Positions 22,389-37,208 of a stretch of DNA of 64,000 nucleotides are shown piece after piece; position 1 is the stretch's first letter; every line of letters starts with the position of its first letter. This DNA comes from Kutzneria buriramensis. GTDB lineage: Bacteria > Actinomycetota > Actinomycetes > Mycobacteriales > Pseudonocardiaceae. Made by a program: the position numbers and the translations under genes. The notes beneath the pieces were generated by a model. The model was not told the DNA's origin and ran no database searches. It saw only the letters and a list, made by a program, of their open reading frames with translations. The stretch is from positions 62,001-126,000 of the forward strand of contig NZ_QUNO01000017.1 in assembly GCF_003387475.1 (NCBI RefSeq), given 5' to 3'.

Positions 22389-23572
22389 TGCGCCAACACC
22401 TTCTCGATGACGTCGGCGGCGGCCGGCGCGCCGCCGGCGCGGCGGATCTCGTCCCGCATGGCCGACGTGGACGTGTGCGCGGCCACGAACTCGACCGCCT
22501 GGCGGACCGTCTCGGCGCGCACCCGCTCCCGGTCCAGCCGCGCGCCGAGACCGAGCTGGACGATCCGGTCGGCGGTCGCCCGATGCTCGGCGATCTGCGG
22601 CACGACCACCATCGGCACCCCGGCATGCAGGCTCTCCATCACCGTGCCCATGCCGCCGTGGTTGACGAAAACCGTGGTGTGGGCGAGGACATCGGCCTGT
22701 GGCACGAACGCGTGCGCCTCGACGGCCGCCGGCAGCGGGCCGAGTTCGGCGGCCGTGACGCCGCCGCCGTGGGCGATCACGACGCGCCACGGCAGGTCAG
22801 CCATCGCGTCGATGCAGCTGCGGAAGAACCGCGGCTGCCGGTTGTGGAAGGTGCCCAGCGACACCAGCACGAGCGGCTCGGCCGGGTGCCGCGGCATCCA
22901 CCTGCCGTGGAACGACCGCTCGCCGAGGCACGGACCGACGAAGTGCACCGAGTCGCCGAAGGTCTCCCCCGCGTACTGGAACGCCCGCGGCAGGTAGACC
23001 AACGCCGGCTCGGCCGGGTCTCCGGCGAGGAACTCCTCGACCGTCAGCGGCAGTCCCAGCCGCTCGATCAGCCCGCCTAGTCCCCGCAACACGGCCGCCG
23101 GATCGGCGACGCCGGCGGCGGTGTAGCCCGCCGCGAGCGACCAGTGCTCATTGGCGGCGAACGTGGGCATGCTCTGCACGGTGGGCACGCGCCAGCGCTC
23201 CGCGAGCAGCTTTCCCGTCCACCCGGACGGATCGTGCACGATCAGGTCCGGTTCGTCGCCGGCGAAGGCTCGCGCGGTCGGCGGCAACACCGCCACCGTC
23301 TCCCGCAGCGTGTTGCGCAGCACCCGGACGAAGTCGTCGGCCGTGAACGCCTCGCGGCGGGCGTAGCCGCGCATGTCGGCCGTGAAGGCCGCGGAACGGG
23401 TCGTGGTCTCGTACGGGATCGGCAGCGCGCCGGTGGCCGCGACCCGGTCGGCGAGTTCGGCGGTGATCGGGTAGCTGACCCGGTGGCCGCGCCGGACCAG
23501 CTCCGCGGCCACCGCGAGCGAAGGGTTGACGTGTCCGGCGAAGGGAATCACGAAGAACGCGATGTGCGCCAT
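22382..23572 (-). CDS. MGT-type glycosyltransferase 1 of the tandem array
   Basis: 396 residues of the macrolide-glycosyltransferase subgroup of GT1. The N-terminal domain starts MAHIAFFVIPFAGHVNPSLA (catalytic-type His in GHVNP), and the C-terminal signature FVNHGGMGTVMESLHAGVP keeps the diphosphate-binding His, followed by QIAEHRATADRI. Most similar in the window to the next gene upstream (23575-24750), with which it shares FAANEHWSLAAG and PRAFQYAG, so they are recent duplicates. It uses an NDP-sugar and acts in the cytoplasm before export. Two bases separate it from the preceding gene. Confidence 0.93.
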   Translation of the reverse strand: MAHIAFFVIPFAGHVNPSLAVAAELVRRGHRVSYPITAELADRVAATGALPIPYETTTRSAAFTADMRGYARREAFTADDFVRVLRNTLRETVAVLPPTARAFAGDEPDLIVHDPSGWTGKLLAERWRVPTVQSMPTFAANEHWSLAAGYTAAGVADPAAVLRGLGGLIERLGLPLTVEEFLAGDPAEPALVYLPRAFQYAGETFGDSVHFVGPCLGERSFHGRWMPRHPAEPLVLVSLGTFHNRQPRFFRSCIDAMADLPWRVVIAHGGGVTAAELGPLPAAVEAHAFVPQADVLAHTTVFVNHGGMGTVMESLHAGVPMVVVPQIAEHRATADRIVQLGLGARLDRERVRAETVRQAVEFVAAHTSTSAMRDEIRRAGGAPAAADVIEKVLAQC

Positions 23573-23574
23573 GG

Positions 23575-24750
23575 TCACGCCGCCTGTTCGACGAAGTCGG
23601 CGGCGGCGCGGGCGCCTCCGGCCGCGTGGATCTCCTGCCGCATCCACCGCAATCCGGCGTGCACGGCCTCGTCGGCCACGACCGCGTCGACGGCCCGTCG
23701 CAGCAGGCGCGGCGTCAGCTCGTCCGGCGCGATCAGCCGGCCCAGGCCGAGCGCCACCACCCGGTCCGCGGTGGCTCGGTGCTCGGCCATCTGCGGCACG
23801 ACCACCGTCGGCACGCCGGCGGCCAGCCCCTCCATCACCGTTCCGGTGCCGCCGTGGTTGACGAACACGTCGGCATGGCGCAGCACATCCCGTTGCGGCA
23901 CATAGGAGTGCAGCTCGGCGTGCGGCGCGATGCCGGCGAGCTCATCCGGCACCGGCCCGCCGAACGCCACCACGAGCCGCCACTGGCCGTCGGCGAACGC
24001 CTCCAGGCAACGGCGGAACGTCGCCAACTGTCGGTTGTGGACGGTTCCGAGCGAGACCAGCGCCACCGGACGGCGGTCGCCGGGCGGCCGCCAGGTCCCG
24101 TCCCTGCTTCCGACGCACGGGCCGACGAACCGGAATCGGTCGTCGAAGGTGTCACCGGCGTACTGAAACGCCCTCGGCACGTAGACCAGCGTCAGATCGC
24201 CTTCGCCGCCGAGGAACTCGTCGACACCGATGCCCGCGCCGCACCAGTCGAGCAACCGCGCGATGCCCCGGGTCAACGCGGCCAGCCCGGCATGCGGGCC
24301 GGCGGGGGTGGCGTGGCCGGCCGCGAGCGACCAGTGCTCGTTGGCGGCGAACACCGGCTGGCTGCGCAGCAACGGCACCCGGAGGCGTCGGGCCAGCAGC
24401 ACGCCCGCCCAGCACGCGGGATCGGCCACCACCACGTCCGGCCGGTCCCGGTCGAACGCCGCGGCGAACGCCGGCAGCGTGGCCACCGCGTCGGCCAGCT
24501 GCCAGCGCAGGTGCCGGGCCAGATCGTCGGCGGTGAACGAGGTACGGTCGGCGAAGGCGGTCGCCGGCTCGCTGCCCAGCACCGTCCGGTACGGCACGGC
24601 GACCGCGCCGGCGCGGCGGACCCGGTCGGCGAACTCCTCGCTCGTGGTGTAGCTGACCCGATGGCCGCGGGCCACCAGCTCGGCGGCCACCGCGAGCGTC
24701 GGGTTGACGTGCCCGGTGAACGGGATGACGAAAAAGGCGATGTGCGCCAT
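23575..24750 (-). CDS. MGT-type glycosyltransferase 2 of the tandem array
   Basis: 391 residues. N-terminus MAHIAFFVIPFTGHVNPTLA, middle FAANEHWSLAAG and PRAFQYAGDTF, C-terminal FVNHGGTGTVMEGLAAGVP with the conserved His and QMAEHRATADRV. All catalytic landmarks are intact. It is separated from its neighbour at 24758 by 7 nt and is part of the minus-strand run that starts with the WecE-like aminotransferase. Probably adds one of several 2,6-dideoxy or amino sugars; specificity cannot be read from sequence. Confidence 0.93.
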   Translation of the reverse strand: MAHIAFFVIPFTGHVNPTLAVAAELVARGHRVSYTTSEEFADRVRRAGAVAVPYRTVLGSEPATAFADRTSFTADDLARHLRWQLADAVATLPAFAAAFDRDRPDVVVADPACWAGVLLARRLRVPLLRSQPVFAANEHWSLAAGHATPAGPHAGLAALTRGIARLLDWCGAGIGVDEFLGGEGDLTLVYVPRAFQYAGDTFDDRFRFVGPCVGSRDGTWRPPGDRRPVALVSLGTVHNRQLATFRRCLEAFADGQWRLVVAFGGPVPDELAGIAPHAELHSYVPQRDVLRHADVFVNHGGTGTVMEGLAAGVPTVVVPQMAEHRATADRVVALGLGRLIAPDELTPRLLRRAVDAVVADEAVHAGLRWMRQEIHAAGGARAAADFVEQAA

Positions 24751-24757
24751 GGGTCTT

Positions 24758-25942
24758 TCAGCCTCCGCCCGCGCCGGTCACCACGTCCGCGGCGGCGGCG
24801 GCCCCGCCGGCGCGCCGGATCGCCGCTCGCATACTGTCGACTCGCATCCGAATGTCCTTGTCCTGCGCCACCGAGTACACGGCCGCTCGCAGCGTGTCCG
24901 CGGTCAGCCCGCGGCCGAGCTGTCGTCCCAGCCCCAGCTCGTCGATGCGGTCGGCGTTGGCCCGCTGCTCGGACATCTGCGGCACGGCCACGATCGGCAC
25001 CCCGAAGTGCAGGCTCTCCATGCTGCTGCGCATGCCGGCCTGGCTGACGAACGCCGTGGCGTGCCCCAGCACGTCGAGCTGGGGCACGGACCGGCGCAGT
25101 TCGACGTGGGCCGGCGCCGGTCCCAGGTCGGCCGGATCCGTGCCCGCGCCGACGGAGATGACCGCGCGCCAGTCCGATTCGGCGAACGCCTCGACGCACG
25201 TGCGATAGAAGTCCGGACGTCTGTTGTGGACGGTTCCCAGCGACACCAGCACCGTCGGGCGTCCGTCGTCCGGCGGCGACCACGCTCCGGCGCCGGGCGG
25301 CACGCACGGGCCGACGAAGTGGAACCGGCAGCCGAAGGTGTCGCCGGCGTACTGGAACTCCCTGGGCAGGAAGACCAGCGTCGGCTCGGCCCCGCTGCCC
25401 AGCAGGACATCCTCCACCGAGAGGTCCGACCGCAGCCGCGCCAGCAGTGCCGCGACGCCGCCGATCACCCTGCCCAGCGCCGGGTTTCCCGGTCGCACGT
25501 CGGTGTGGGCGTCGGCGAGCGACCACTGGTCGCCCATGGCGAACGTGGAACGGCTGGCCACGGCGGGAATCCCCAGCCGGTGGGCCGCCAGCCGCCCGGC
25601 CCACCCGGTCGGATCGTCGTACACGACCACGTCCGGCGGGTCGTCGGCGAAGGCCCGGGTCAGTTGAGGCAGCACCGTGACGGCCTCGGTGAGCAGTCCC
25701 GCGACGAGGTCGGCCAGGTCGTCGTCGGTGAAGGCCGGCCGCGCCGGGCGGGCCGCCTGCTCGGCCAACGCCATCGTGGTGCGGTAACGCACCGCTCGCG
25801 CGCCGACACGGGCCACCGCCCCGGCAAACTCGTCGGTGACGGCGAAACTGACCCGGTGGCCGCGATCGACCAACTCGGCCACCATGCCCAGCGGCGCGTG
25901 CACGTGGCCGGCGTCCGGGATCGCGTAGCAGGCTACGTGCAC
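24758..25942 (-). CDS. MGT-type glycosyltransferase 3, missing the diphosphate-binding His
   Basis: 394 residues from GTG 25942, overlapping the previous gene by 10 nt. The fold is the same as its neighbours (CYAIPDAGHVHAPLG at the N-terminus, LPREFQYAGDTF in the middle), but the signature reads FVSQAGMRSSMESLHFGVP: the usual His is Gln and the Gly pair is disturbed. QMSEQRANADRI follows. It may be weakened, have altered donor binding, or act as an auxiliary partner of an intact paralogue. The full-length frame shows no other damage, so selection seems to maintain it. Confidence 0.9.
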   Translation of the reverse strand: MHVACYAIPDAGHVHAPLGMVAELVDRGHRVSFAVTDEFAGAVARVGARAVRYRTTMALAEQAARPARPAFTDDDLADLVAGLLTEAVTVLPQLTRAFADDPPDVVVYDDPTGWAGRLAAHRLGIPAVASRSTFAMGDQWSLADAHTDVRPGNPALGRVIGGVAALLARLRSDLSVEDVLLGSGAEPTLVFLPREFQYAGDTFGCRFHFVGPCVPPGAGAWSPPDDGRPTVLVSLGTVHNRRPDFYRTCVEAFAESDWRAVISVGAGTDPADLGPAPAHVELRRSVPQLDVLGHATAFVSQAGMRSSMESLHFGVPIVAVPQMSEQRANADRIDELGLGRQLGRGLTADTLRAAVYSVAQDKDIRMRVDSMRAAIRRAGGAAAAADVVTGAGGG

Positions 25943-27138
25943 GGCTGACGGGCCTCCTCCAGGGCGAGCTCGACGACGTCGGCAGCGGCCGACGCGCCAC
26001 CGGCGGCGTCGATCTGACGCCGCATGTCGGCGACGCGGGCGCGGACGCCGGCGTCGGACGTCACCGCGTCGACCGTGCGCGCCAGGGCATCCACATCGTC
26101 CAGCCGGGCGCCCAGCCCCAGCTCGACGATCCGGTCGGCATTGGCCCGCTGCTCCGGCATCTGCGGCGCCGCCACCACCGGCACGCCGGCGTGCAGGCTC
26201 TCCATCACGCTGCCCATGCCCGCGCTGCTGACGAACACGTCGGCGCGCTTGAGCACGTCCAGCTGCGGCACGAACGGGTGCGCCTGGACGTTGCCCGGCA
26301 GCGGGCCGAGCGCGGCGGGATCCAGCCCGCCGCCGAGCGCGATGACGGCGTGCCAGTCGGTGTCGGCGAAGGAGTCCACGCAGCGTCGGAAGAACTCCGG
26401 CCGGTTGTTGTACGCGGTGCCCAGCGACACCAGCGCGAGCCGGCTGCCGGCCGGCGGCGGCTGCCAGCGTCCGTGGCGGCCACGGGGCCCGAGACAGGGC
26501 CCGACGAAGTGGGTCCGCGGGTCGAACGTGTCGCCGGCGGGCTGGAAAGCCCGCGGCAGATAGACCAGGGTCGCCCGGCCGCCCCGCTCGGTGAAGAACT
26601 CGTCGGCGCCCAGGTCCACGCCGAGCCGTTCGATCAGCCGGCCCAGCCCGGCGTGCACCGCCGCGAGCCCGGCGGACGAGCCGTCGCCGCCGTAGTTCCG
26701 GCCGAGCGACCAGTGCTCGTTGCCGGCGAAGGTGGGCACGCTGCGCACGGTCGGGACGGCCCAGCGGGCCGCCAGCAGCCGGGCGGCCCAGCACGGCGAG
26801 CTGTGCACGACCAGGTCGGGCCGGTCGCGGTCGAACTCGGCGGCCAGTGTGGGCAGGTTGGCCACCGCCTCGGCCAGCCGGCCGTGCTGGATGCGGGCCA
26901 GGTCCGTGCCGGCGAATCGGTCCCGGTCGGCGAAGGACGCCTTGTCCCGGCCGAAGAAGGACTTCATGGTGGCGGTGTAGCCGACCCGCCGCGCGCCGGC
27001 CAGCGCCACCCGGTCGGCGAACTCGTCGGCGGCCGCGTAGCTGACCCGGTGACCGCGGCGCACCAGCTCCTCGACCACGGCCAGGGTCGGGTGGACGTGG
27101 CCGGCGTCGGCGATGGCGAAGAAGGCCACATGGGCCAT
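25933..27138 (-). CDS. MGT-type glycosyltransferase 4, missing the diphosphate-binding His
   Basis: 401 residues from ATG 27138, with AGGGATC upstream. N-terminus MAHVAFFAIADAGHVHPTLA, middle FAGNEHWSLGRNYGG and LPRAFQPAGDTFD. The C-terminal signature is FVSSAGMGSVMESLHAGVP, so the His of the family is Ser here. Like the gene after it, it keeps an intact frame and the other binding segments (QMPEQRANADRI). The two His-less paralogues are adjacent and share the EQRANADRI variant, so they form one subfamily within the array. Confidence 0.9.
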   Translation of the reverse strand: MAHVAFFAIADAGHVHPTLAVVEELVRRGHRVSYAAADEFADRVALAGARRVGYTATMKSFFGRDKASFADRDRFAGTDLARIQHGRLAEAVANLPTLAAEFDRDRPDLVVHSSPCWAARLLAARWAVPTVRSVPTFAGNEHWSLGRNYGGDGSSAGLAAVHAGLGRLIERLGVDLGADEFFTERGGRATLVYLPRAFQPAGDTFDPRTHFVGPCLGPRGRHGRWQPPPAGSRLALVSLGTAYNNRPEFFRRCVDSFADTDWHAVIALGGGLDPAALGPLPGNVQAHPFVPQLDVLKRADVFVSSAGMGSVMESLHAGVPVVAAPQMPEQRANADRIVELGLGARLDDVDALARTVDAVTSDAGVRARVADMRRQIDAAGGASAAADVVELALEEARQPCT

Positions 27139-27151: not shown

Positions 27152-27913
27152 TCACAGTAGTTCCGACCGCACCAGGTGCACGGTCGCGAGCGGGTGCGCC
27201 GGCTCGAAGCCGTACCGGGCCCAGGCCCGCTGGCCGGCGATGTTGTGCCCCTGGGTGGGGCTGACCAGGAAGTCCGCGCCCAGCTCCGACGCGCGGTCCT
27301 CGACCGCCGCGATGAGCCGCGGGTACACCGCGCGGCCGCGGGCGGCCGGCGCCACCGCGGCCAGCAGCAGTTCGACCCGGTCGTCGTCCCGCTCCCAGGT
27401 GATCGCACCCAGTGGCCCGCGTCCGTCGTGCACGGCGATGGCGTGCCCGGACTTCGCGCTGCGGCACGCCCAGTCCGGATAGGCCACCGCGGACAGCGCG
27501 GGGTCGAACAGCGGGTTGGCCGCGTAGTGGTTGGCGTAGCCGGCGAAGCCGGTGGCCATCAGGTCCGCCACCATGTCCGGGTCCGGCTCCGCGACCACCG
27601 CGATCTCTTCCGACGGTGCGGGCCGCCGGCCGCCACCGACCCGGAGCCGCCAGTACGTCAGCGTGTCCGCGAAGATGGCGGCCCTCCCCGGCACGGCCCG
27701 CAGGCCCGCGAACCACGTCACGTTGCCGGCGGGATACCGCAGCACTACCACGTCCGCCGTGCTGTCCCGGGCCACCGCGAGGACCTCCTCCAGGCCGGCC
27801 GTCGAGGTCGCGGACACCGTGACGCGCGTGACGCCCACCCCGAACCGTTCGCCGTCCAGCGGCGAGTCCCGGACCGTGAGCCCCGGCGTCAGCACGGATT
27901 CCCGCCAGCTCAT
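27152..27913 (-). CDS. GNAT-family N-acyltransferase, WecD-like
   Basis: 253 residues. The GNAT acetyl-CoA-binding region is VELLLAAVAPAARGRAVYPR and the C-terminal half continues TQGHNIAGQRAWARYGFEPA, typical of WecD/FdtC-type sugar amine acetyltransferases. The N-terminal 100 residues form a second, weaker domain, as in WecD. Its ATG overlaps the stop of the WecE-like aminotransferase (ATGA), the same pairing used to make TDP-4-acetamido-4,6-dideoxygalactose. Inferred reaction: acylation of the 4-amino group of a TDP-4-amino-4,6-dideoxyhexose before or after transfer. Confidence 0.8.
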   Translation of the reverse strand: MSWRESVLTPGLTVRDSPLDGERFGVGVTRVTVSATSTAGLEEVLAVARDSTADVVVLRYPAGNVTWFAGLRAVPGRAAIFADTLTYWRLRVGGGRRPAPSEEIAVVAEPDPDMVADLMATGFAGYANHYAANPLFDPALSAVAYPDWACRSAKSGHAIAVHDGRGPLGAITWERDDDRVELLLAAVAPAARGRAVYPRLIAAVEDRASELGADFLVSPTQGHNIAGQRAWARYGFEPAHPLATVHLVRSELL

Positions 27914-29061
27914 CGGCTCACCTCGAAGGACAGCACGGCGTCGACCACCTGGTCCACATCGGACGGAGTGAGCCCGGCGTGCAGTGGGAGCCGCAGCAGC
28001 CGGTCGGCGATCCGTTCCGTCACCGGGCAGCCGGCGGCCGTGGTCCGGCCGAACCGCTGGCCGCCGGCGGACGTGTGCAGCGGCTGGTAGTGGAACGCTG
28101 CCAGCACGCTGCGGCGCTCGAGGTGCGCGAGCAGGGCCTGCCGGTTGGCGAGGTCGGGCAGCAGCAGGTAGTACAGGTGCGCCGGGTGGGCGCAGCCGTC
28201 CGGCACGGTCGGCTGGCCGATGCCCTGCTCCGCCGCCCAGCGGGCCAGCCGCGCGTGATACGCGGACCAGGCGGCGTGCCGGCGGCGCTGGATGTCGTCG
28301 AATCCCTCCAGCTGCGCGGTGAGGAACGCGGCGAGCAGTTCGGACGGCAGGAAGCTCGACCCGACGTCGACCCAGGTGTACTTGTCCACGACGCCGCGGA
28401 AGAACTGCCCGCGGTTGGTCCCCTTCTCTCGGATGATCTCGGCGCGGGAGGCGAGGTCGAGATCGTTGACGAGCAGGGCGCCGCCCTCGCCGCACTGGAC
28501 GTTCTTGGTGGCGTGAAAGCTCTGCGTGGCAAGGGCGCCGAGCGAGCCGAGCGGGCGGCCGCGGTAGCTGCCGCCCAGGCCGTGCGCGTTGTCCTCGACG
28601 ACGGTGAGGCCGTGCCGGGCCGCGACGGCCAGGATGGCGTCCATCTCGCAGGCGACGCCGGCGTAGTGCACGACGGCGATCGCCCGGGTCCGCGGGGTGA
28701 TGGCGGCCTCGATCAGCCGCTCGTCGATGTTCAACGTGTCCGGGCGGCAGTCCACGAACACCGGCACGGCGCCGCGCAGCACGAACGCGGTGGCCGTGGA
28801 CACGAACGCGAATGACGGCACGATCACCTCGTCGCCGGGCCGCAGGTCGAGCAGCAGGCCGCACATGTCCAACGCGCTCGTGCACGAGCAGGTCAGCAGC
28901 GTCCGGCCGGCGCCGGTCAGCTCGCCGATCAACGCGGCCGCGCGCGCGGTGAACGGCCCGTCGCCGGACAGCGCGCCGGCCATCGCCGCACCGAGGTACG
29001 CGTGTTCGCGACCGGTGAGAAAAGTGCCGTTCAGGCTGACGACCGAATTCACGTTGAGCAC
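27910..29061 (-). CDS. WecE-like DegT/DnrJ/EryC1 sugar aminotransferase
   Basis: 383 residues from a GTG at 29061; a second GTG three codons later is possible. DegT-family PLP motifs: CSCTSALDMCGLLLDLRPGD at the phosphate site, VVEDNAHGLGG (Asp to the pyridine N), and SFHATKNVQCGEGGAL with the Schiff-base Lys. The TKN-GEGG region and overall length match WecE/RffA (TDP-4-keto-6-deoxyglucose 4-aminotransferase). With the overlapping WecD-like acyltransferase it should yield a 4-acylamino-4,6-dideoxysugar. It is the first gene of the minus-strand glycosyltransferase run and is divergent from the precursor gene. Confidence 0.85.
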   Translation of the reverse strand: MLNVNSVVSLNGTFLTGREHAYLGAAMAGALSGDGPFTARAAALIGELTGAGRTLLTCSCTSALDMCGLLLDLRPGDEVIVPSFAFVSTATAFVLRGAVPVFVDCRPDTLNIDERLIEAAITPRTRAIAVVHYAGVACEMDAILAVAARHGLTVVEDNAHGLGGSYRGRPLGSLGALATQSFHATKNVQCGEGGALLVNDLDLASRAEIIREKGTNRGQFFRGVVDKYTWVDVGSSFLPSELLAAFLTAQLEGFDDIQRRRHAAWSAYHARLARWAAEQGIGQPTVPDGCAHPAHLYYLLLPDLANRQALLAHLERRSVLAAFHYQPLHTSAGGQRFGRTTAAGCPVTERIADRLLRLPLHAGLTPSDVDQVVDAVLSFEVSR

Positions 29062-29120: not shown

Positions 29121-29298
29121 GGTATGAGCAGCGTCAGCCGAGGGGCGGAATTTTGCGGTCACTCCAACAACGCCGGACGGAGCGCCGAAACCAGCCGGAG
29201 AGCCGTAGCACGGCGCAGACTCAACCGGCATTCTCGATGCCAGGCCGAGGCCAGAAGGGACACGGCCGGTTACACCACAATTTATTTCGGAGGTATCC

Positions 29299-29433
29299 AT
29301 GTCGGACGCTTCGCTGTTGGCCGTCGATCTCGCGGACCTCGACGACCTCACCGTCGACGACCTGCTGGCGGGCGACAGCACGGACATCAGCCCGAAGATG
29401 GAGGCGTGCTGCTGCTCCTGGTGCGGCTGCTGA
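29299..29433 (+). CDS. Thiazolylpeptide-type RiPP precursor peptide (core ACCCSWCGC)
   Basis: 44 residues from ATG 29299, with GGAGG seven bases upstream. The leader (residues 1 to about 35) is acidic and amphipathic, with nine Asp and segments LADLDDLTVDDLLAGD and ISPKME, like thiopeptide leaders recognised by ocin-ThiF proteins. The core has Cys37-39, Ser40, Trp41, Cys42, Gly43 and a C-terminal Cys44. Five Cys and one Ser predict thiazoles, not the two Ser-derived dehydroalanines needed for a thiopeptide pyridine. The C-terminal Cys is the expected substrate of the flavoprotein decarboxylase two genes downstream. A 15-bp hairpin follows the gene. It sits in the middle of the cluster with YcaO and dehydrogenases 10 kb away. 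The cleavage site is not certain: before Cys37, or before Ala36. Confidence 0.88.
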   Translation: MSDASLLAVDLADLDDLTVDDLLAGDSTDISPKMEACCCSWCGC

Positions 29434-29473
29434 TTTCTGCCGTCCGGCGGTCTTCACCCGGGACCGCAGGTCA

Positions 29474-29514
29474 GGGTGTTTCCCGGGGCGTTCCCCTCAC
29501 CCCGGGAAACACCC
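29474..29514 (+). terminator. Hairpin behind the azole-peptide precursor
   Basis: A perfect 15-bp stem (GGGTGTTTCCCGGGG, 29474-29488; its complement at 29500-29514) with an 11-nt loop begins 40 nt after the precursor stop and ends 42 nt before the next gene. No T-run follows, so partial read-through into the glycosyltransferase and decarboxylase is expected. Confidence 0.75.
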
Positions 29515-29556: not shown

Positions 29557-30684
29557 ATGCGTGTGCTGCTCGCCTCATGGGGATGGCCTTCGCACTATTT
29601 CCCGCTCGTCCCCACCGGCTGGGCATTCCGGTCGGCCGGGCACGACGTGCGGGTGGCCACCCAGCCCGGGCTGGTCGACGTCGTGCTGAATTCCGGCCTG
29701 CCCGCGGTCGCGGTCGGCCGGGACATCGACGTGCCCGATATCGTGCGCAAGGCGCGCGAACGCCTGGCCCCCGGGGCCCGGCCCGCGGCGCCGTTCTTCT
29801 TCGATCCCTATCTGGCCGCCGCCGAATCGATGGTCGACGACCTGCTCCGGCGGGCCGAGTCAGAGCGACCGGACCTGGTGGTCTACGAGCCGACGACATA
29901 TGCGGCCCCGCTGGTCGCCGCGCGACTGGGAATTCCGCGCGTCCGGCAGTTGTGGGGGCCGGACTTCCTGTGGCAGCTGCGTGACCGTGAACGCGCGGCA
30001 CTCGCCCCGCTGGCCGAGCGCCTGGGGCTCGACGGCATCAGCCCCGCGACCGACGACACGCTCGACCCCTGCCCGGCGGGCATGCGGGTGGCCACGGAGT
30101 ATCGCCGCCATCCGGTGCGTTACGTGCCCTACAACGGCAACGCCGCCGTCCCGGACCTGCCGCCGCGTGGCGACCGCCCCCGGGTGTGCGTGACCATCGG
30201 CAGTACCCTGCCCAAGATCGGCGGCCAGCCCGACTCGCTCGGCGAAACCCTTGCCGCACTTGCGGATTTTGACGTCGTCCTGGCCACCTCGGCACCGCCG
30301 TCGACGGCCGTGCCGCCGCACGTGACGGTGATGGAGTCCGTGCCGTTCACCGCGCTGCTGCCCACCTGCGACGTGCTCGTGCACCAGGGCGGGCCCGGCA
30401 CGATGATGACCGCGCTCGCCCTCGGAGTGCCGCAGCTCGTGCTGCCCTCCTTCCTCCCCGAGCAGCCCTTCTACGCCGACAAGATCGTCCGCCAGGGCGC
30501 CGCGCTGGCGCTGCGTCCCGCGTCGGCGACCGCGACGGCGGTCGCCGACCGGGTCGCCCGGCTGGTTCGGGACCCCGCGTTCCGGTCGGCGGCCGCACGC
30601 CTGCGCGCCGAGAACGACGCGCTGCCCAGCCCCGCCGACGCGGTGTCCGCCCTGGCCCACAACGGGAGTAGCCATGTCCTCTGA
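29557..30684 (+). CDS. DesVII/EryCIII-like glycosyltransferase
   Basis: 375 residues, GT1 family but of a different subgroup from the MGT array. N-terminus MRVLLASWGWPSHYFPLVPT, and C-terminal signature VHQGGPGTMMTALALGVPQ followed by PEQPFYADKI, as in macrolide/angucycline glycosyltransferases. The active-site His of the second domain is present; the N-terminal base is in a SHYFPL segment. It is the first enzyme gene after the precursor and overlaps the decarboxylase by 11 nt, so it may add the first sugar to the peptide. No DesVIII-type helper is visible nearby, though the two His-less MGTs could serve as partners (speculative). Confidence 0.9.
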   Translation: MRVLLASWGWPSHYFPLVPTGWAFRSAGHDVRVATQPGLVDVVLNSGLPAVAVGRDIDVPDIVRKARERLAPGARPAAPFFFDPYLAAAESMVDDLLRRAESERPDLVVYEPTTYAAPLVAARLGIPRVRQLWGPDFLWQLRDRERAALAPLAERLGLDGISPATDDTLDPCPAGMRVATEYRRHPVRYVPYNGNAAVPDLPPRGDRPRVCVTIGSTLPKIGGQPDSLGETLAALADFDVVLATSAPPSTAVPPHVTVMESVPFTALLPTCDVLVHQGGPGTMMTALALGVPQLVLPSFLPEQPFYADKIVRQGAALALRPASATATAVADRVARLVRDPAFRSAAARLRAENDALPSPADAVSALAHNGSSHVL

Positions 30685-31285
30685 TGCCCGGTGGAATCCG
30701 CGGGCGAACGCCGCCCCGCCGTTCGGCGCCCGCCGGCTGCTTCTGCTCGTCACCGGCTCGTCGGCGGCGGTGTTCCTGCCGCCGTGGCTGAGCTGGCTCT
30801 GCTTCGGCTACCCCGACCTGGAGTGCAAGGTCGTGCTGACCAGGTCCGCGCAGCACTTCGTGACCGCCGAGGGCCTTCGCCCGCTCGGGCCGTCCGAGGT
30901 GCTCGCCGACGACTGGTCCCCCGCGTCTCGGGACCGTTCGCTGCACGTCGAGCTCGCCCAGTGGCCCGACGCGGTGGCGGTCTACCCCGGCAGCATGAAC
31001 TTCCTCGCCCGCTTCGCCCTCGGCGCCGTGGACACTCCCGCCCTGCTCGCGCTCCAGTGCACGACCGCCCCGATCGCCATCGCGGCGGCCCTGCCGCCCG
31101 GCGGTTGGGACTGCGCCGCCATGCTCCGCCACCGCCGCGAGCTGGCCGATCGTCCCAACGTCGCCGTGCTGCCGCCGGTGCCCGGCCGCAGCATGACCAC
31201 CGGCCAGCAGAACGGGAACCAGCCGGGTTCCCTGCCGGAGCTGATCACCCTGCTGGAGCGCACCCGCACAGCCCTGGCGAGCTGA
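30674..31285 (+). CDS. HFCD-type flavoprotein Cys decarboxylase (EpiD/MrsD/TvaF family)
   Basis: 203 residues. FMN-binding start LLLLVTGSSAAVFLP, catalytic His91 in LHVELAQWPDAVAVYPGS and the flavin-site segment PGSMNFLARFALGAVD identify the homo-oligomeric flavin-containing Cys decarboxylases. The substrate-recognition clamp of EpiD is only loosely matched (PPGGWDCAAM). These enzymes oxidatively decarboxylate a C-terminal Cys of a RiPP precursor to an aminoenethiol. The precursor at 29299 ends in Cys, and the genes are co-directional, so this is the natural substrate. A 4'-phosphopantothenoylcysteine decarboxylase role is unlikely because the synthetase half is missing. ATG at 30674 with GGGAG upstream. 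Confidence 0.85.
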   Translation: MSSDARWNPRANAAPPFGARRLLLLVTGSSAAVFLPPWLSWLCFGYPDLECKVVLTRSAQHFVTAEGLRPLGPSEVLADDWSPASRDRSLHVELAQWPDAVAVYPGSMNFLARFALGAVDTPALLALQCTTAPIAIAAALPPGGWDCAAMLRHRRELADRPNVAVLPPVPGRSMTTGQQNGNQPGSLPELITLLERTRTALAS

Positions 31286-31297: not shown

Positions 31298-32437
31298 CTA
31301 GCCGGCCGCAGCCTCCACATGGTCCGCCGCCGCCGCGGCGCCGCCACTCGCCCGCATCTCCGCCCCCATCGCCGCGAGCCGTTCCCGGGTCGCGGCGTCC
31401 TCGGCGACCGCGAGCACGGCCGACCGCAACGCCTCGGCGGTGGCCCTGCGCACACTCAACGCCCGGCCCAGCCCCAGCTCCACGAGCCGGCGGGCGTTGG
31501 TCACCTGCTCGGGCAGCCTGGGCACCGCAACGACCGGAACGCGCAGGTACAACGCCTCCATCAGGCTGTTCATCCCGGCATGCGTGACAAAGGCCCGTGC
31601 CGTCGACAGCAGCTCCATCTGCGGCACCCACGGCAGTGCCGTGACGTTGCGTGGGAGCGGGCCGAGCGCCGCGGCATCCGTGCGGGAGCCCACCGACATG
31701 ACCACCTCCCAGTCCAGGTCGGCGAAGGCGTCGGCGCATGTCCGGTAGAACTCGGGATGGGCGGTGTTGATCGAGCCGAGGGAGACCAGGAGCAGCGGCC
31801 GCCGTCCGTCCGCGCGCGCCCGGGCTGCTGGCGGATCGGCGAGGCACGGGCCGACGAAGGAGTAGCCGGCGCCGAACTCGTGGCCGGCGGGCTGATAACT
31901 CCGCGGCAGCAGCACGATCCCACCGTCGAAGCCGGCGGCGTAGTGCTGCTCCGCCGTCCGGTCGATGCCTTGGCGCCGCAGGAACTCCGTCAGGGTGGTC
32001 AGCAGCCGCGAGACGTCCTGGTGCCCGTGGCCGTACCGGGCGGTCCAGTGCGTGCGGGACGCGAGGAACGACCACACCTGCACCTGTGGGATGTCCCATC
32101 GCGTGGCCAGCAGCCGCAGCGCGGACGCGGGATCCTCGGACACCACCACGTCCGGCCGGTCGGTGGCGAAGGCGGCCGCCAGTTCGGGCAGCGTCGCGAT
32201 GGCCTCGTCGAGCAACAGCAGCGGCAGGCCGAAGAAGTCCTTGGGCCAGGCCCGCGGGTCACGCGGCAGCCGGGACCGGTAGCCGACCGGCCGCGCGCCG
32301 GCCGCGGCGACCCGGTCGGCGAACGCGTCCGTGACCGCGTAGCTGACGCGGTGTCCCCGGCGCCTGAGTTCGGCGACGATGCCCAGCATCGGACCGACAT
32401 GACTGGTCGTCATGCCGGTGGCGAAGGCGATGTGCAC
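31298..32437 (-). CDS. MGT-type glycosyltransferase 5
   Basis: 379 residues from GTG 32437. Intact landmarks: GMTTSHVGPMLG (catalytic-type His), LPRSYQPAGHEFG and FVTHAGMNSLMEALYLRVP with the diphosphate-binding His, then RLPEQVTNARRL. It is more diverged from the four tandem paralogues than they are from each other and is placed separately, converging on the decarboxylase gene with 12 nt between stops. Sugar and acceptor unknown; probably another step in assembling the oligosaccharide. Confidence 0.92.
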   Translation of the reverse strand: MHIAFATGMTTSHVGPMLGIVAELRRRGHRVSYAVTDAFADRVAAAGARPVGYRSRLPRDPRAWPKDFFGLPLLLLDEAIATLPELAAAFATDRPDVVVSEDPASALRLLATRWDIPQVQVWSFLASRTHWTARYGHGHQDVSRLLTTLTEFLRRQGIDRTAEQHYAAGFDGGIVLLPRSYQPAGHEFGAGYSFVGPCLADPPAARARADGRRPLLLVSLGSINTAHPEFYRTCADAFADLDWEVVMSVGSRTDAAALGPLPRNVTALPWVPQMELLSTARAFVTHAGMNSLMEALYLRVPVVAVPRLPEQVTNARRLVELGLGRALSVRRATAEALRSAVLAVAEDAATRERLAAMGAEMRASGGAAAAADHVEAAAG

Positions 32438-32485: not shown

Positions 32486-32869
32486 ATGCCATTGCCCGAG
32501 GCGGTCCGGGAACGCTGCCGCCGCTTCCTGCGGCCCGGTGACCGGATCCGATACGTGTTCCCCGCGATGAGCCTGTCCATCGGCCGGTCCGCGGGCACCG
32601 CGCCGTTCCTGGTCGTCGTCGGTGAGGCCGAGGTGCTGGTGCTGGGCTGCGGCGTCTTCCGGCGCAACAACCCCAAGTCGGTCTGGGCCCGGCACCCGGC
32701 GACGGTGCGGCTGGGCCCGGTGGAGACCGGCGGCTCGCTCAAGCCCACCATCAGGCTCGGCGAGCTCGTGCTCGAACTGGACGAGGAGTACGCCGCGGTG
32801 GTGACCGCCGCGGACGCCGAACGGCTCAACACCGACCAGCTTCCCGCGGATCCGTTCCCCGACCTGTGA
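32486..32869 (+). CDS. Small conserved-looking protein of unknown function, leaderless mRNA
   Basis: 127 residues; I do not recognise the family with certainty. It has an amphipathic N-terminus (PEAVRERCRRFLRPGDRIRY), a beta-rich middle (FLVVVGEAEVLVLGCGVFRR) and a segment LGELVLELDEEYAAVVTAAD, resembling small PH-like or cyclic-nucleotide-type beta proteins. No signal peptide or membrane helix. There is no ribosome-binding site; the promoter places the start of transcription at the ATG. The last 44 nt overlap the 3' end of the convergent P450. It is the only single-gene plus-strand unit in the otherwise minus-strand second half of the cluster. It may be a housekeeping or resistance protein; no function is assigned. 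Confidence 0.65.
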   Translation: MPLPEAVRERCRRFLRPGDRIRYVFPAMSLSIGRSAGTAPFLVVVGEAEVLVLGCGVFRRNNPKSVWARHPATVRLGPVETGGSLKPTIRLGELVLELDEEYAAVVTAADAERLNTDQLPADPFPDL

Positions 32870-34028
32870 ACGTGACCGGCACCGCGTCGAGCCGGTGCAG
32901 CACGCTGACCTGACGCCACCGCAGCTCGTACGGCGGGCAGCCCAGCGCGAGATCGGGAAAGCGCCGCAGCAGGCCGTCGACGGCGACCCGCGCCTCCATC
33001 CGCGCCAGCGGCGCGCCGAGGCAGAAGTGGATGCCGTGCCCGAAGGCGAGGTGGCGCCGGTCGGGCCGGGTCACGTCGAGCCGGCTCGGGTCCCGGAACC
33101 GCCTCGGGTCGCGGTTGGCCGCCGCAAGTCCGATGTGGACCATGCTGCCGGCGTGGACCGGCGCCCCGCCGAGGTCGAGGTCCTCTGCGGCGATGCGAAC
33201 GGCGGTCTGGCCGGCCGATCCCTCGTAGCGGAGCAGTTCCTCCACCAGGGCCTCGGGATCCGCGCCCCGCATGCGATCCGGCTCACGCAGCAGCACGGCC
33301 ACGCCGTTGCTGATCAGGTTGGTCGTGGTCTCCAACCCCGCCATCACCAGCACCACGCACAGCGCGCTCAGCTCACGCTCGCTGAGCCGGTCGTCGGCGG
33401 TGACGAGGGCGCTGAGCAGGTCGTCACCGGGCGTCTCCCGCTTGGCGGCCACCAGCCGGGCGAAGTAGGCCCGGATCCGGCGTGCCCGCTCGCGCGGCGG
33501 CAGCGGCGCGCCGCGGACACCCAGCGTCCGGGCGGCCCAGGTGGCGAACGCGTCGCGGTCGCCGGCCGGCACGCCGAGCAGCGCGCAGAGGACCCGCACC
33601 GACAGCGGGAAGGCGAATTCCGATACCAGTTCGGCGGTTCCGCGGGGCGCCATGTCGTCCAGCAGCGTGCCGACGACGCGCCGCACCTCGGGCCGCAGCC
33701 GCTCGACCCGAGCCGGGGTGAACGTCCGGGACAGCAGCCCGCGCAGCCGTGTGTGGTCCGGCGGATCGCTGTTGATCATCGGCAGGAACGTGTCGTCGCC
33801 GTCGTCGACCAGCCCGGTGTGCCGGGGATCGTTGGACAGCCTGCGGTCGGTGAGCGCCGAGCGAGCCAGGTCGTAGCCGGTCACCAGCCAGTACTCGAAG
33901 CCGTCCGGCGTGCGGATCCGATGCACCGGGCCGATCTCGTGCAGCCGCGCGTAGATCTCGTCGGGACGGGTGAGCAGGTCGGCCGGCGCGATCTCGATCG
34001 CCTCGGCGCGGTGTCCGGTCAGCCCCAT
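32826..34028 (-). CDS. Cytochrome P450
   Basis: 400 residues from ATG 34028. I-helix VLVMAGLETTTNLIS (the usual acid/alcohol-pair region reads GLETT), ExxR helix LVEELLRYEG and heme loop FGHGIHFCLGAPLARM. Close in architecture to the P450 at 21222-22388. It overlaps the 4-ketoreductase gene by 10 nt, so it is co-expressed with the deoxysugar genes. Hydroxylation of the azole peptide, for example at Trp or a beta-carbon, would create attachment points for sugars; this is inference. The 3' end overlaps the leaderless gene on the other strand. Confidence 0.94.
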   Translation of the reverse strand: MGLTGHRAEAIEIAPADLLTRPDEIYARLHEIGPVHRIRTPDGFEYWLVTGYDLARSALTDRRLSNDPRHTGLVDDGDDTFLPMINSDPPDHTRLRGLLSRTFTPARVERLRPEVRRVVGTLLDDMAPRGTAELVSEFAFPLSVRVLCALLGVPAGDRDAFATWAARTLGVRGAPLPPRERARRIRAYFARLVAAKRETPGDDLLSALVTADDRLSERELSALCVVLVMAGLETTTNLISNGVAVLLREPDRMRGADPEALVEELLRYEGSAGQTAVRIAAEDLDLGGAPVHAGSMVHIGLAAANRDPRRFRDPSRLDVTRPDRRHLAFGHGIHFCLGAPLARMEARVAVDGLLRRFPDLALGCPPYELRWRQVSVLHRLDAVPVTFTGRGTDPREAGRC

Positions 34029-34819
34029 GCGCCGAGCTTGACAGTGGATCCGCCCCCGGTCTTCAGTCCCGAGGCTGAATCCGGCCAGGAGTTCAGGTAT
34101 CGGTCCAGCAGCGCCGGCAGGTGACGGACCCCGAAGTCGATCGCCGCGAATTCGGGCACCAGCTCGTGCAGCCGGCTCACATCGGCGACGGTCCGTCCGG
34201 CCCGGCCGGGCACCGCGATCCGCCGGGGCCGCACCCCCAGCCGCCGCTCGATCTCGGTCACGATCCGCTCCACCGGCTCCGGCGTCGCGGAGGCGACATT
34301 CACCGTCTGGCAACGGGTCTCGGCCAGCAGCCGGTCCACGGCGAGGACCAGGTGCCGCACGTCGAGCAGGTCGCGATGAGCTCCACTGTGGATGGACACG
34401 ACGCCGGAACGCACCTGGGCGGCCAGGAACGGCATCATCTGCCAGGGTTGCTGGGCGCGCCCGACCAGGTGACTGATCCGCAGGATCAGCCACGGCACGC
34501 CGGAGTCCCGGACGACGGACTCCATCGCGAGCTTGTGCCAGCCGTACGCACTGACCGGGTGCGCCGGCTCGTCCTCCGTCCGTGGCTCGCCGGTCGCGCC
34601 GTACAGCGCCGCCGAAGCCGTCGAGCAGAAGACCACCGTGTGCCCGAGCGCCCGGCACTCCCGCAGCGTCGCCAGCACGAGTTCGCGCTCCCGGGCGAAC
34701 TCGGCGTCGTCGGTGACGGACGTGCTGGACACGCCGGCGGCGATGACCGTCACCTGGGGATGACGGTCCCGCAGCGCGCCCAGCTCACGCGCGATGAAGC
34801 CGGTGCCGATGATCCTCAT
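34019..34819 (-). CDS. NDP-hexose 4-ketoreductase (extended SDR)
   Basis: 266 residues, short for the family. N-terminal nucleotide site MRIIGTGFIARELG (GxGxxA/G), catalytic YGWHK with the Ser/Thr in FCSTASAALYG, and LRISHLVGR. These match TDP-4-keto-6-deoxyhexose 4-ketoreductases. It overlaps the 3-ketoreductase gene (ATGA) in a four-gene sugar cassette with the P450. It would carry out the final reduction to a 2,6-dideoxyhexose; the stereochemistry at C4 cannot be deduced. Confidence 0.8.
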   Translation of the reverse strand: MRIIGTGFIARELGALRDRHPQVTVIAAGVSSTSVTDDAEFARERELVLATLRECRALGHTVVFCSTASAALYGATGEPRTEDEPAHPVSAYGWHKLAMESVVRDSGVPWLILRISHLVGRAQQPWQMMPFLAAQVRSGVVSIHSGAHRDLLDVRHLVLAVDRLLAETRCQTVNVASATPEPVERIVTEIERRLGVRPRRIAVPGRAGRTVADVSRLHELVPEFAAIDFGVRHLPALLDRYLNSWPDSASGLKTGGGSTVKLGAWG

Positions 34820-35805
34820 GCCACCCGCCACCCTCCGGTGATCGCCATCTCCCGGACCTGCTCGGCCAACTCGACAGTGCGCACCGCATGCGCGCACCAC
34901 CGGGCCTCGGCCGGGTGCCGCGCCGACCGGCCGGCGAGCACGGCATCGGCGAAGGATCCGACGGCCGCGGCGATCTGATCGGCCGGCTCCAGGGGCACGG
35001 CCTCATCCTCGATTCGCAACACCGGCCGCCAGTCCGCCGGCGGCGTGTACGCGCGGTCCAGTCGTGCCGCCGCGGCAGTGCCGTGCAACGAGTACGAACA
35101 TTCGTAGCTGTGCTCGAAACCGAAGCCGATGGTCGCCAGAACGCCGTCCTTGGTGACGAGCAACGCCTGACCGGCCACGTCCACGCCCCTGCGGTCATCC
35201 ACCAGCAGGCTCGCGCCGACCACCCGGATATCCCCGCCCAGCAGCAACTGGGCCGCCCGCAGTGGGTAGACGCCGACGTCGAGCAGCGCGCCGCCGCCCA
35301 GCTCGCGGCGGTAGCGAACGTCGTGCGGCGGCAGCGGCGGAATGCAGAACGAGCCATGGAAGGCCCGCAGCCGCCCGAGCCGCCCCGCCGCGAGCAACTC
35401 ACGGACCTGAGCGTGCTGGGGGTGGTGGGGAAAGAGGAAGTTGTCCCGCAGCAGCAGCCCGTGATTCGCGGCCAGGCGCACCAGTCGTCGGGCGTCCCAG
35501 GGCCGCAGCGCCAGTGGCTTCTCCGCCAACACGTGCTTTCCCGCGCGCAGCGCCGCCTCGATCCACCGGGGGCGGAGGGCGAGCGGCAGCGGCAGGTACA
35601 CCACGTCGATGTCGTCACGGCCGAGCAATTCATCGTAACCCGTTGCCGCACAGCGGAACTCGGCCGCGAAGCGGGCCGCCTTGGCCGGCTCGCGGCTGGC
35701 CACTGCGGCCACCTCCGTCCGCGGATGTGCCCGCAACGCCGGCAGCATCCGCCGCCACGCGAAGGAGGCGCACCCCAGCACCCCGAAGCGCACGACGCCG
35801 GTCAC
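34816..35805 (-). CDS. NDP-hexose 3-ketoreductase (Gfo/Idh/MocA family)
   Basis: 329 residues from GTG 35805, overlapping the dehydratase stop (GTGA). Rossmann start FGVLGCASFAWRRMLPAL, catalytic EKPLA in HVLAEKPLALRP, and the C-terminal beta-sheet domain with GGGALLDVGVYPLRAAQLLL. This family reduces the 3-keto intermediate made by the 2,3-dehydratase, as TylC1/KijD10-type enzymes do. Gene order dehydratase, 3-ketoreductase, 4-ketoreductase defines 2-deoxygenation and 2,6-dideoxysugar formation. Confidence 0.88.
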   Translation of the reverse strand: MTGVVRFGVLGCASFAWRRMLPALRAHPRTEVAAVASREPAKAARFAAEFRCAATGYDELLGRDDIDVVYLPLPLALRPRWIEAALRAGKHVLAEKPLALRPWDARRLVRLAANHGLLLRDNFLFPHHPQHAQVRELLAAGRLGRLRAFHGSFCIPPLPPHDVRYRRELGGGALLDVGVYPLRAAQLLLGGDIRVVGASLLVDDRRGVDVAGQALLVTKDGVLATIGFGFEHSYECSYSLHGTAAAARLDRAYTPPADWRPVLRIEDEAVPLEPADQIAAAVGSFADAVLAGRSARHPAEARWCAHAVRTVELAEQVREMAITGGWRVA

Positions 35806-37208
35806 CGCAGGCTCCGCAGACACGCGACCAGCGTCCGCGCCTCGACGTTGAGGTAGTGGCTGTGTCGCAGCAGCCCGGTGAGCTGGTGCACGGTCAGCCA
35901 GCGGAAGTCGTCTCGGCCGGCGGCCGGCTCGTCGTCCACCTCGATGATCAGGTACCGGCCGCGCGCGTGGTGGAACCGCCCGCCCTCCTCGGACAGCTCG
36001 GCGTCGAACAGCACCTGCTCCGGCCGCCGCCCCAGTACGAGATCCAGCAGGGGCGGCCGATCCAGCCGGGTGTAGTTGTCCGGCGTGCACTGCACCGTGG
36101 GGGCGAGTTCGACGGCGTCGAGGTAGCCGGGTTCGACCCTCGCGTTGACCAGCGCGTGCAGCACCCCGTCGATTCGCCGCACCAACAACGCGATGACGCC
36201 GATGCCGTGCGGTTCGAGCAGCGGCTGGGTCCACGAGCCGACCTCGCGGCTGTCGGCCCGCACGTCGACCGCCACGACGCTGAAATGCAGGCCCTGTTCG
36301 TGCGAGATGGCCATGTCCGACCGACGCCAGCAGCGGACGTCGACGAGCGGGATCGGCGTGGTGACCAGCTCGATCTCGCTGTGTTTGGCGGTGATCCAGC
36401 TGAGCACGTCGGTCGTGCTGTGCAGGCTGCCGAATCGGGGGTCGCAGGACCTGCGGACGGCTGCCGCGACGTCGTCACCGCCCGGCATGCCGGGCGCGGC
36501 GTCGGGCAGGCAGGACAGCACCGTCCGGGCATCCATGTTCACCAGGTTGTCCACGCGCAGCAGCTCGTGCAGCTGGCCGACGGTGAGCCAGCAGAAGTCC
36601 GGCCCGGCGTCGACCTCCGGCCCGACCTCCACCACCATGTTGCGGTTCCGCTTGCGGTAGAACCACGATCCCTGTTCGGACTGCAAAACATCCGCGAGCA
36701 CGCGGCCCGGTGCCACCGCGCGGAAGTGCGCCAGGTACGGGACCGCGGCTCCGCCGTGCGCGCCGGTGTAGTTGCTCCTGGTGGCCTGCACGGTCGGCGA
36801 GAGCTGCACCTTGTTGACGTTGCCCGGCTCGGCCTTGGCCTGCATCAGGCAGTGCAGCACGCCGCCGATGTCCCGCACGGCGATGCCCAGCACGCCGATC
36901 TCCGGCTGACTGATGATCGGCTGCGTCCACTGCCGGACCGGGCCGGCGCCGCCGCGCACCGCCAGCCCCATCACCGTGAAGAACCGGCCGGTGTGGTGGC
37001 CGAGGTTGCCGGTCGCCGGGTCGAACCCCCAGCCGCGCAGCTCGTCGAACGGGATCCGCCGCACCTCGTGGACCTGGGCTCGGCAGCGTTCGGCGTACCA
37101 GGCGTGGAACTCGGCGGTGCTGGTGGCGACGCCGTCCGTGGCCAGCGCGGACTCCGCGATGCGCCGCGCCAGGTCGGATTCGGCGCTGCGGGACAGGGTT
37201 GCGGTCAT
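35802..37208 (-). CDS. NDP-hexose 2,3-dehydratase
   Basis: 468 residues built from two homologous halves. Each half carries a VHEVRRIPFDELRGW / WLTVGQLHELL-type segment, a QP-I/L-E-x-G-V segment (SQPEIGVLGIAVRDIGGVLH and EPHGIGVIALLVRRIDGVLH) and an LSPTVQATRSNY / LAPTVQCTPDNY block. This duplicated architecture is specific to TDP-4-keto-6-deoxyglucose 2,3-dehydratases (TylCVI, EvaA, SpnO family). It catalyses the C2 deoxygenation entry step. TDP-glucose synthase and 4,6-dehydratase are not in the window, so the substrate must come from elsewhere in the genome. Overlaps the FAD enzyme gene by ATGA. Confidence 0.93.
   Translation of the reverse strand: MTATLSRSAESDLARRIAESALATDGVATSTAEFHAWYAERCRAQVHEVRRIPFDELRGWGFDPATGNLGHHTGRFFTVMGLAVRGGAGPVRQWTQPIISQPEIGVLGIAVRDIGGVLHCLMQAKAEPGNVNKVQLSPTVQATRSNYTGAHGGAAVPYLAHFRAVAPGRVLADVLQSEQGSWFYRKRNRNMVVEVGPEVDAGPDFCWLTVGQLHELLRVDNLVNMDARTVLSCLPDAAPGMPGGDDVAAAVRRSCDPRFGSLHSTTDVLSWITAKHSEIELVTTPIPLVDVRCWRRSDMAISHEQGLHFSVVAVDVRADSREVGSWTQPLLEPHGIGVIALLVRRIDGVLHALVNARVEPGYLDAVELAPTVQCTPDNYTRLDRPPLLDLVLGRRPEQVLFDAELSEEGGRFHHARGRYLIIEVDDEPAAGRDDFRWLTVHQLTGLLRHSHYLNVEARTLVACLRSLR

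Follow-up and report, generated by a model that had tools for sequence, protein, structure and literature searches.

Bottromycin carries a decarboxylated C-terminus with a terminal thiazole, and the C-terminal decarboxylation of bottromycin and micrococcin is carried out by a P450 and a short-chain dehydrogenase, respectively, rather than by a LanD flavoprotein. Micrococcin is described as an azole RiPP with a decarboxylated C-terminus (PMC10634744), which likens it to the product that we predict for the locus analyzed here. Decarboxylases of the CypD/LanD type act on the C-terminal Cys of cypemycin, lexapeptide, the rosins and cacaoidin (PMC8068269, PMC12291118), which is also the reaction predicted in our case. 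Cacaoidin is glycosylated as well, with a deoxysugar disaccharide, but its glycosyltransferases (GTs) are described as GT-2 and GT-4 members (PMC8068269, PMC12291118), whereas those of our locus are of the EryCIII type. From the AviCys RiPPs our locus differs by its azole machinery, by the absence of HopA1 from the genome and by the absence of LanB nearby. Thiopeptides of the thiomuracin/GE37468 type (e.g. from a plasmid of Streptomyces sp. NBC_01471, L255) have the YcaO-type azole machinery in common with our locus and possess a short acidic leader that, judged by eye, is similar to the one found here; in contrast to them, neither a LanB pair nor a pyridine synthase nor a match to the precursor model was found for our locus, and its core contains one Ser. 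Persiathiacins resemble our locus in the presence of several GTs and deoxysugar genes, together with P450s, around a thiazole-containing RiPP, but are described as built on a nocathiacin-type thiopeptide core with four GTs (PMC11406533); the string "decarboxylat" does not occur in the main text of that paper. A 2015 survey mentions a TOMM F protein outside heterocycloanthracin (HCA) or thiopeptide clusters in just two cases (PMC4603692); the cyclodehydratase of our locus is of the F-protein-dependent type and has a LanD and GTs alongside.

Azole formation, decarboxylation of a C-terminal Cys and multiple glycosylation are each known in RiPPs. We found no report of all three together in the titles and abstracts of open-licence papers, which is weak evidence; the cluster is built from known RiPP parts in a combination that we have not found described.

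The precursor and a homologous cluster in another bacterial family

The stretch that we analyzed, hereafter the window, comprises 64 kb (bases 62001-126000 of contig C17, in a genome of 11.97 Mb). Its central feature is a small gene with two associated elements:

29289..29293, plus strand: Shine-Dalgarno sequence GGAGG directly 5' of the precursor ATG
29299..29433, plus strand: precursor gene, an ORF of 44 aa whose translation ends with ACCCSWCGC and a stop
29474..29514, plus strand: perfect inverted repeat of 15 bp between the precursor and the glycosyltransferase gene

The peptide can be divided into a leader (approximately residues 1-34) and a core (approximately 35-44, EACCCSWCGC), the putative cleavage site being placed from the alignment of Met34 with the homolog described below. 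A single match to CCC-x-WC-x-C-stop is present in the window and 0 of 100 shuffles contain one, while CCCS-x-CGC-stop has a single occurrence in the entire 11.97-Mb genome. The preliminary description of this DNA had reported the ORF with its ACCCSWCGC end and single Ser, and its translation, the Shine-Dalgarno sequence and a homolog elsewhere all agree with that report. We confirmed the ORF at 29299-29433 as a real gene, the strongest evidence being that a homologous precursor occurs among corresponding genes in a different bacterial family. A search of the window's genome with the precursor matches only the precursor itself (E <= 10). Two terms of the preliminary description are less apt: the core is only loosely "Cys-only", since it has one Ser, retained in the homolog, and the "thiopeptide-type leader" reflects a likeness seen by eye, as neither the window precursor nor its homolog matches any NCBIfam family (0 families, E <= 10), whereas three control precursors in the same search match NF033399, the thiomuracin/GE37468 precursor model.

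The homologous cluster is located in a genome (G726) from another bacterial family and is the only one of 29 LanD loci that also carries azole genes. Its proteins are identical to those of the window at 34% (F protein), 53% (YcaO), 43% and 44% (SagBs), 54% (FAD enzyme), 51% (glycosyltransferase), 55% (LanD), 52% (2,3-dehydratase) and 54% (Gfo/Idh). In both clusters the genes run precursor-GT-LanD in one direction and F protein-YcaO-SagB-SagB-FAD enzyme-2,3-dehydratase-Gfo/Idh in the opposite direction. The G726 precursor (47 aa, TTG start preceded by an AGGAGG site) ends with CSCCCSSCGC and is 61% identical to that of the window, with 27 of 47 alignment columns invariant and the CCCS-x-CGC pattern retained. 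Ser40 and all five Cys residues are conserved; the Trp, in place of which G726 has a Ser, cannot be regarded as a defining trait. Judging from these alignments, the core of the cluster is conserved in a second bacterial family.

The G726 cluster additionally possesses three tandem glycosyltransferases and one more, as well as RmlA-, RmlB- and RmlD-like genes and an O-methyltransferase (Pfam names). Its ends are marked by two genes of housekeeping type, a PTS EIIC gene and secA, between which the recognised genes are those for azole formation, LanD, sugars, methyl transfer and glycosyl transfer; in this interval we recognised neither a PKS nor an NRPS gene as a potential source of a different aglycone. 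Searches (tblastn) of the G726 loci with the window P450 (32826-34028), the DegT-type aminotransferase, the epimerase and the MycE-like methyltransferase gave no match, hence part of the decoration of the window product would not be shared.

The gap between the precursor and the GT gene (29434-29556) is predicted to fold strongly (z -3.8, 0 of 200 shuffles as low), and so is the corresponding gap in G726 (z -3.7, 0 of 200 shuffles as low). The hairpin at 29474-29514 may perhaps serve to keep the precursor mRNA more abundant than the mRNA of the genes that follow.

Further relatives of the precursor appear to be rare. In the family of the window's genome 15 of 390 genomes match the precursor at E <= 0.1, the own genome included, and the 15 other rows contain no Cys-terminal ORF with a leader. 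The two-row precursor alignment retrieved one of 341 genomes in the family of G726, namely G726 itself. A scan of genome contigs with the F protein yielded 237 stretches fitting the peptide pattern, none of them a relative, in a single-protein search that detects close relatives only. None of 80 loci, out of at least 118 with the core pattern in genome contigs, is a precursor; this pattern demanded the Trp, so that the G726 homolog could not have been found in this way. The core DNA had 0 matches in viral contigs. The 394 genomes of the class were searched with LanD alone, so further clusters may exist.

Azole, putative decarboxylase and sugar genes

The genes assigned to azole formation are:

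38386..39708, minus strand: double-domain SagB-type azoline dehydrogenase 2 (Pfam Nitroreductase; start inferred; 44% identical to G726)
39705..41150, minus strand: double-domain SagB-type azoline dehydrogenase 1 (NCBIfam SagB above cut-off; 43% to G726)
41163..43073, minus strand: fused E1-like/YcaO cyclodehydratase, SagD family (NCBIfam TIGR03604 and TIGR03882 above cut-off; 53% to G726)
43066..44892, minus strand: ocin-ThiF-like F protein (NCBIfam TIGR03693, E 1.6e-35, score 122.5 against a model cut-off of 561.9; 34% to G726)

A YcaO with an E1-like or F-protein partner, as found here with NCBIfam models, is characteristic of linear azol(in)e-containing peptides, and the Pfam and NCBIfam assignments support the earlier view of an azole-type precursor accompanied by a thiopeptide-like cyclodehydratase set. 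Relatives of the F protein are present in 30 of 390 genomes of the family, the own genome included. Seven of nine relative loci that we examined contain LanB/SpaB_C genes, and none (0/9) has a LanD match; the other two, L061 and L065, show no LanB within the examined stretch. A YcaO search of plasmids matched 104 records, the two best of which are 45% and 49% identical; the 49% match (over 73% of the length) belongs to an annotated thiopeptide cluster, and the 45% record carries no annotation.

Some of the loci with related F proteins have features of their own. L061 (G247:C7:144000-163900), with an F protein, YcaO and SagB genes and no LanB match in the stretch, also contains a 41-aa Cys-terminal ORF, detected in the control scan, and is possibly another dehydratase-less azole system. 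L059 (5889-6053, minus strand) and L060 (5890-6057, minus strand), from two genomes of one genus, have precursors with SCNTCQCWASCVA-type cores adjoining F protein, YcaO, SagB and LanB genes.

Two genes downstream of the precursor lies the putative decarboxylase gene:

30674..31285, plus strand: LanD/CypD-type flavoprotein, predicted peptidyl-cysteine decarboxylase (Pfam Flavoprotein; 55% identical to G726)

Its best NCBIfam match is NF033753, the CypD peptide-cysteine decarboxylase (E 2.6e-25), with a score of 88.8 that stays below the model cut-off of 215, and its best PDB match is CypD, the cypemycin decarboxylase (6jdd). Relatives were found in 14 of 390 genomes of the family (E <= 1e-16) and in 13 of 394 genomes of the class (E <= 1e-25), the own genome being included in both counts. 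His91, which by analogy with EpiD-type enzymes we take to be the catalytic residue, is conserved without exception in the alignment (30/30 rows).

For the analysis of gene neighborhoods we used the loci of 29 of the 30 non-window matches (G522:C1:555574 was left out). A small, acidic, Cys-terminal ORF preceded by a Shine-Dalgarno sequence is present in 24 of the 29 LanD loci (23/28 without the G726 homolog), as compared to 1 of 12 azole/flank control loci and 3 of 80 unrelated ones; reading the LanD loci backwards gives 1 of 29. The filter was fixed after the LanD loci, including the homolog, had been inspected, and was applied identically to all sets. As most of the unrelated loci span 8 kb instead of 20 kb, rates per 100 kb make the fair comparison: 6.99 for the LanD loci versus 0.43 and 0.50 for the controls. 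Azole genes (matches to F protein, YcaO or SagB) occur near LanD relatives in 0 of 16 and 1 of 13 loci, the sole case being G726. In the tree, the window LanD pairs with that of G726 weakly (support 76/28), so the link between LanD and azole genes could have arisen twice. The invariant His91 and the habitual Cys-terminal partners support an oxidative decarboxylation of Cys44, the C-terminal residue of the precursor, which this flavoprotein should catalyze.

The remaining genes between 20 and 46 kb code mostly for glycosyl transfer and for synthesis or modification of sugars:

20032..21177, plus strand: MycE-like methyltransferase (Pfam; no match in the G726 loci, where a different O-methyltransferase is present)
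21222..22400, minus strand: second cytochrome P450 (Pfam, heme motif; start approximate)
22382..27138, minus strand: four tandem related glycosyltransferases (Pfam, tblastn; starts inferred)
27152..27800, minus strand: GNAT-type acetyltransferase (start approximate; Pfam Acetyltransf_1, E 7.8e-06, residues 533-624 of frame 27152-29077)
27910..29061, minus strand: DegT-type sugar aminotransferase (Pfam, E 1.3e-86; no match in the G726 loci)
29557..30684, plus strand: EryCIII-type glycosyltransferase (Pfam, PDB; adjoins the precursor in both clusters; 51% to G726)
31298..32437, minus strand: glycosyltransferase (Pfam; start inferred)
32826..34028, minus strand: cytochrome P450 (Pfam, heme motif FGHGIHFC; start inferred; no match in the G726 loci)
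34019..34900, minus strand: NAD-dependent epimerase/ketoreductase (Pfam; start uncertain; no match in the G726 loci)
34816..35823, minus strand: Gfo/Idh-type oxidoreductase, probable NDP-hexose 3-ketoreductase (Pfam; 54% to G726)
35802..37208, minus strand: NDP-hexose 2,3-dehydratase (Pfam, E 1e-158; 52% to G726)
37205..38389, minus strand: FAD-dependent monooxygenase-like protein (Pfam; in both clusters; 54% to G726)
44992..46200, minus strand: glycosyltransferase (Pfam)

Seven glycosyltransferases are thus encoded from 20 to 46 kb, and an eighth at 1670-2854. As expected for a glycosylated RiPP, a GT and sugar genes are tied to the precursor, with the GT gene adjoining it in both clusters. 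The GNAT-type acetyltransferase may perhaps act on an amino sugar or on the N-terminus. In the PDB, the FAD-dependent protein matches flavin halogenases best (E 4.7e-17 and weaker). A halogenase function was nonetheless rejected: HLGAAR stands opposite the WLWYIP segment of 8zop, a motif typical of halogenases, and on the basis of this replacement we prefer to regard the protein as a monooxygenase.

Proposed product and alternatives

We consider it quite probable that the precursor at 29299-29433 would be converted to a polyglycosylated polythiazole RiPP by azole formation, C-terminal decarboxylation and glycosylation, whatever the fate of the enethiol. In the proposed pathway, the F protein (43066-44892) would first bind the leader, the YcaO protein (41163-43073) would cyclodehydrate Cys37, 38, 39 and 42 and possibly Ser40, and the two SagB enzymes would then act as dehydrogenases on the resulting azolines, giving azoles. 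From Cys44 the LanD-type flavoprotein (30674-31285) would release CO2 and 2 H (a shift of about -46.0 Da) to leave an enethiol, which would most simply close onto the Gly43 carbonyl to give a terminal 4,5-unsubstituted thiazole, or be capped with a sugar. A core EACCCSWCGC has a calculated neutral mass of 1063.27 before modification, 983.16 once four thiazoles are present, 937.16 after the additional decarboxylation and 919.15 if the enethiol then cyclizes to a thiazole. The FAD enzyme and the P450s would introduce hydroxyl groups, and the seven glycosyltransferases would assemble 2,6-dideoxy- and aminodeoxysugars into chains, the first sugar probably being placed on Ser40 or on a hydroxylated site. 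We infer all the chemical steps, the sugars and where they are attached, and what becomes of the enethiol; the evidence in hand consists of gene content, the homologous cluster, conservation of the core, invariance of the LanD His and the Cys-terminal partners.

The preliminary description had predicted a linear thiazole peptide with an embedded Trp. Its azole precursor, its thiopeptide-like gene set and its lack of dehydratases and pyridine synthase stand, while the simple linear chain is not supported: that reading overlooked the LanD two genes downstream, the GT between it and the precursor and the deoxysugar genes, and the Trp is not fixed. The cluster is more unusual than that reading implied because it combines genes for azoles, LanD and polyglycosylation.

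Six LanB/SpaB_C queries (tblastn, 1e-2) found no match in the window or in 40 kb of G726, whereas the positive-control loci were matched. In the whole genome, PF04738 and PF14028 (E <= 0.01) match on contigs C3, C6, C14 and C30 only and not on C17, where the PF14028 search, aimed at a pyridine synthase, likewise had no match. In these searches neither a LanB-type dehydratase pair nor, by tblastn as well as PF14028, a pyridine synthase was found in the window, just as had been claimed. Dehydratase and pyridine-synthase genes for this precursor located elsewhere had been named as a finding that would contradict the original reading, and LanB matches do exist on the four contigs, but the thiopeptide-like set on C14, with a LanB and two SpaB_C domains, comes with a separate precursor (82 aa, thiomuracin/GE37468 type by NCBIfam). 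The G726 genome also contains LanBs outside the cluster, and the LanBs located elsewhere in both genomes could act in trans. The precursor of the C14 cluster (L056:7723-18242, G000) carries a long Gly/His/Trp-rich tail past its Cys/Ser part.

Since no recognised dehydratase is encoded nearby, the enethiol would most simply be closed as a terminal thiazole or capped with a sugar. The terminal thiazole is a tentative suggestion, which we hold to be somewhat on the doubtful side; its 4,5-unsubstituted ring would need no dehydrogenase. A variant of the same proposal is that the enethiol adds to a Dha, derived from Ser40 or from a core Cys that loses its sulfur, to form an azole/AviCys hybrid macrocycle. 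LanD relatives accompany Cys-terminal precursors like those of AviCys RiPPs, Ser40 is retained in both precursors, and the window encodes both a flavin Cys decarboxylase with the active-site His, although under the CypD cut-off, and a precursor with a C-terminal Cys that is kept in the homolog. The AviCys ring would require a partner made otherwise, again for want of a recognised dehydratase nearby, as in cypemycin, the Dha of which is reported to derive from Cys and the cluster of which is described as devoid of a Lan-like dehydratase (PMC4979651). As to enzymes that make Dha or Dhb, however, LanB has no match in either locus and HopA1 none in either genome. Moreover, the ring step is described as using a kinase-fold cyclase, with an unstable enethiol (PMC12291118), and Pfam matches revealed no LanC or protein-kinase-fold protein among the genes called at 20-46 kb. 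On balance we regard the hybrid macrocycle as unlikely.

Another variant, which we consider less likely still, takes the LanD for an amidating enzyme, the labile enethiol being hydrolysed to a C-terminal Gly43 amide. The enethiol is described as unstable and prone to hydrolytic side reactions, which are mentioned for the rosins (PMC12291118), and no protecting kinase-fold protein was found by Pfam among the genes called at 20-46 kb; the conserved Cys44, on the other hand, shows only that LanD requires Cys44.

It is improbable that the product is merely a linear polyazole, with the flavoprotein and the glycosyltransferases belonging to an unrelated neighboring pathway. Such a product could be made by F protein, YcaO and SagBs without further enzymes, and two of the nine related F-protein loci (L061, L065) are without LanB in the examined stretch; yet in two bacterial families the precursor, GT and LanD genes sit side by side in the same orientation, LanD proteins of this kind are accompanied by Cys-terminal precursors, and the G726 cluster, delimited by the PTS gene and secA, contains no other recognised aglycone gene.

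We find it hardly credible that the product is a thiopeptide made with dehydratases and a pyridine synthase encoded at other places in the genome. In favor of this reading are the 49% identity (over 73% of the length) between the YcaO and its counterpart in the annotated plasmid thiopeptide cluster, and the matches on C14 (LanB and two SpaB_C domains), C3, C6 and C30. Against it, the C14 set is accompanied by a thiomuracin/GE37468-type precursor of its own, no LanB pair, pyridine synthase or precursor-model match (E <= 10) was found for the window cluster, and the single core Ser contrasts with the at least two Ser needed for cycloaddition, the thiopeptide ring being described as formed from two dehydroalanines (PMC4603692); the G726 core CSCCCSSCGC, with three Ser, would alone have enough of them.

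The polyglycosylated, decarboxylated polythiazole is thus the reading that we prefer. That the two clusters represent a new RiPP class, in which a recruited LanD yields an enethiol that becomes a YcaO-made terminal thiazole or an S-glycoside on a deoxysugar-bearing polythiazole, is a serious possibility, to which we would give somewhat less than an even chance. Conversion of the enethiol to a thiazole or an S-glycoside, if true, would be a new outcome of LanD action and a simple route to C-terminal heteroaromatics. Sugars on a polythiazole might ease low solubility, named as an obstacle for thiopeptides (PMC11406533), and the two clusters with their different cores are ready test pairs.

The left part of the window

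The eighth glycosyltransferase lies in this part, together with further genes:

1670-6815, minus strand: eighth glycosyltransferase (1670-2854) and others
13116-14495, minus strand: further genes
14453-17489, plus strand: further genes
17495-18457, minus strand: ParB/StrR-like protein (assigned from its sequence; without a match in Pfam or NCBIfam)

The ParB/StrR-like protein is perhaps a regulator of the pathway, as far as its sequence suggests; a search for a StrR-type operator as its binding site gave 0 matches. Among the other products in this part we noted a condensation domain, a KASIII-like enzyme, a stand-alone (NRPS-like) A domain, a radical SAM protein, an acyl-CoA dehydrogenase with some likeness to prolyl-carrier dehydrogenases, and an OKR-type decarboxylase, as well as a free carrier-protein motif near 15943. 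The A domain, the carrier-protein motif and the KASIII-like enzyme all fall within approximately 2.8-17.5 kb. Six left-side proteins used as queries had no match in the G726 loci; given this and the presence of the A domain, carrier and KASIII-like enzyme, some of the window GTs could serve another product. The left-part genes possibly provide an acyl (pyrrole-like) unit for a sugar, or else constitute a separate pathway.
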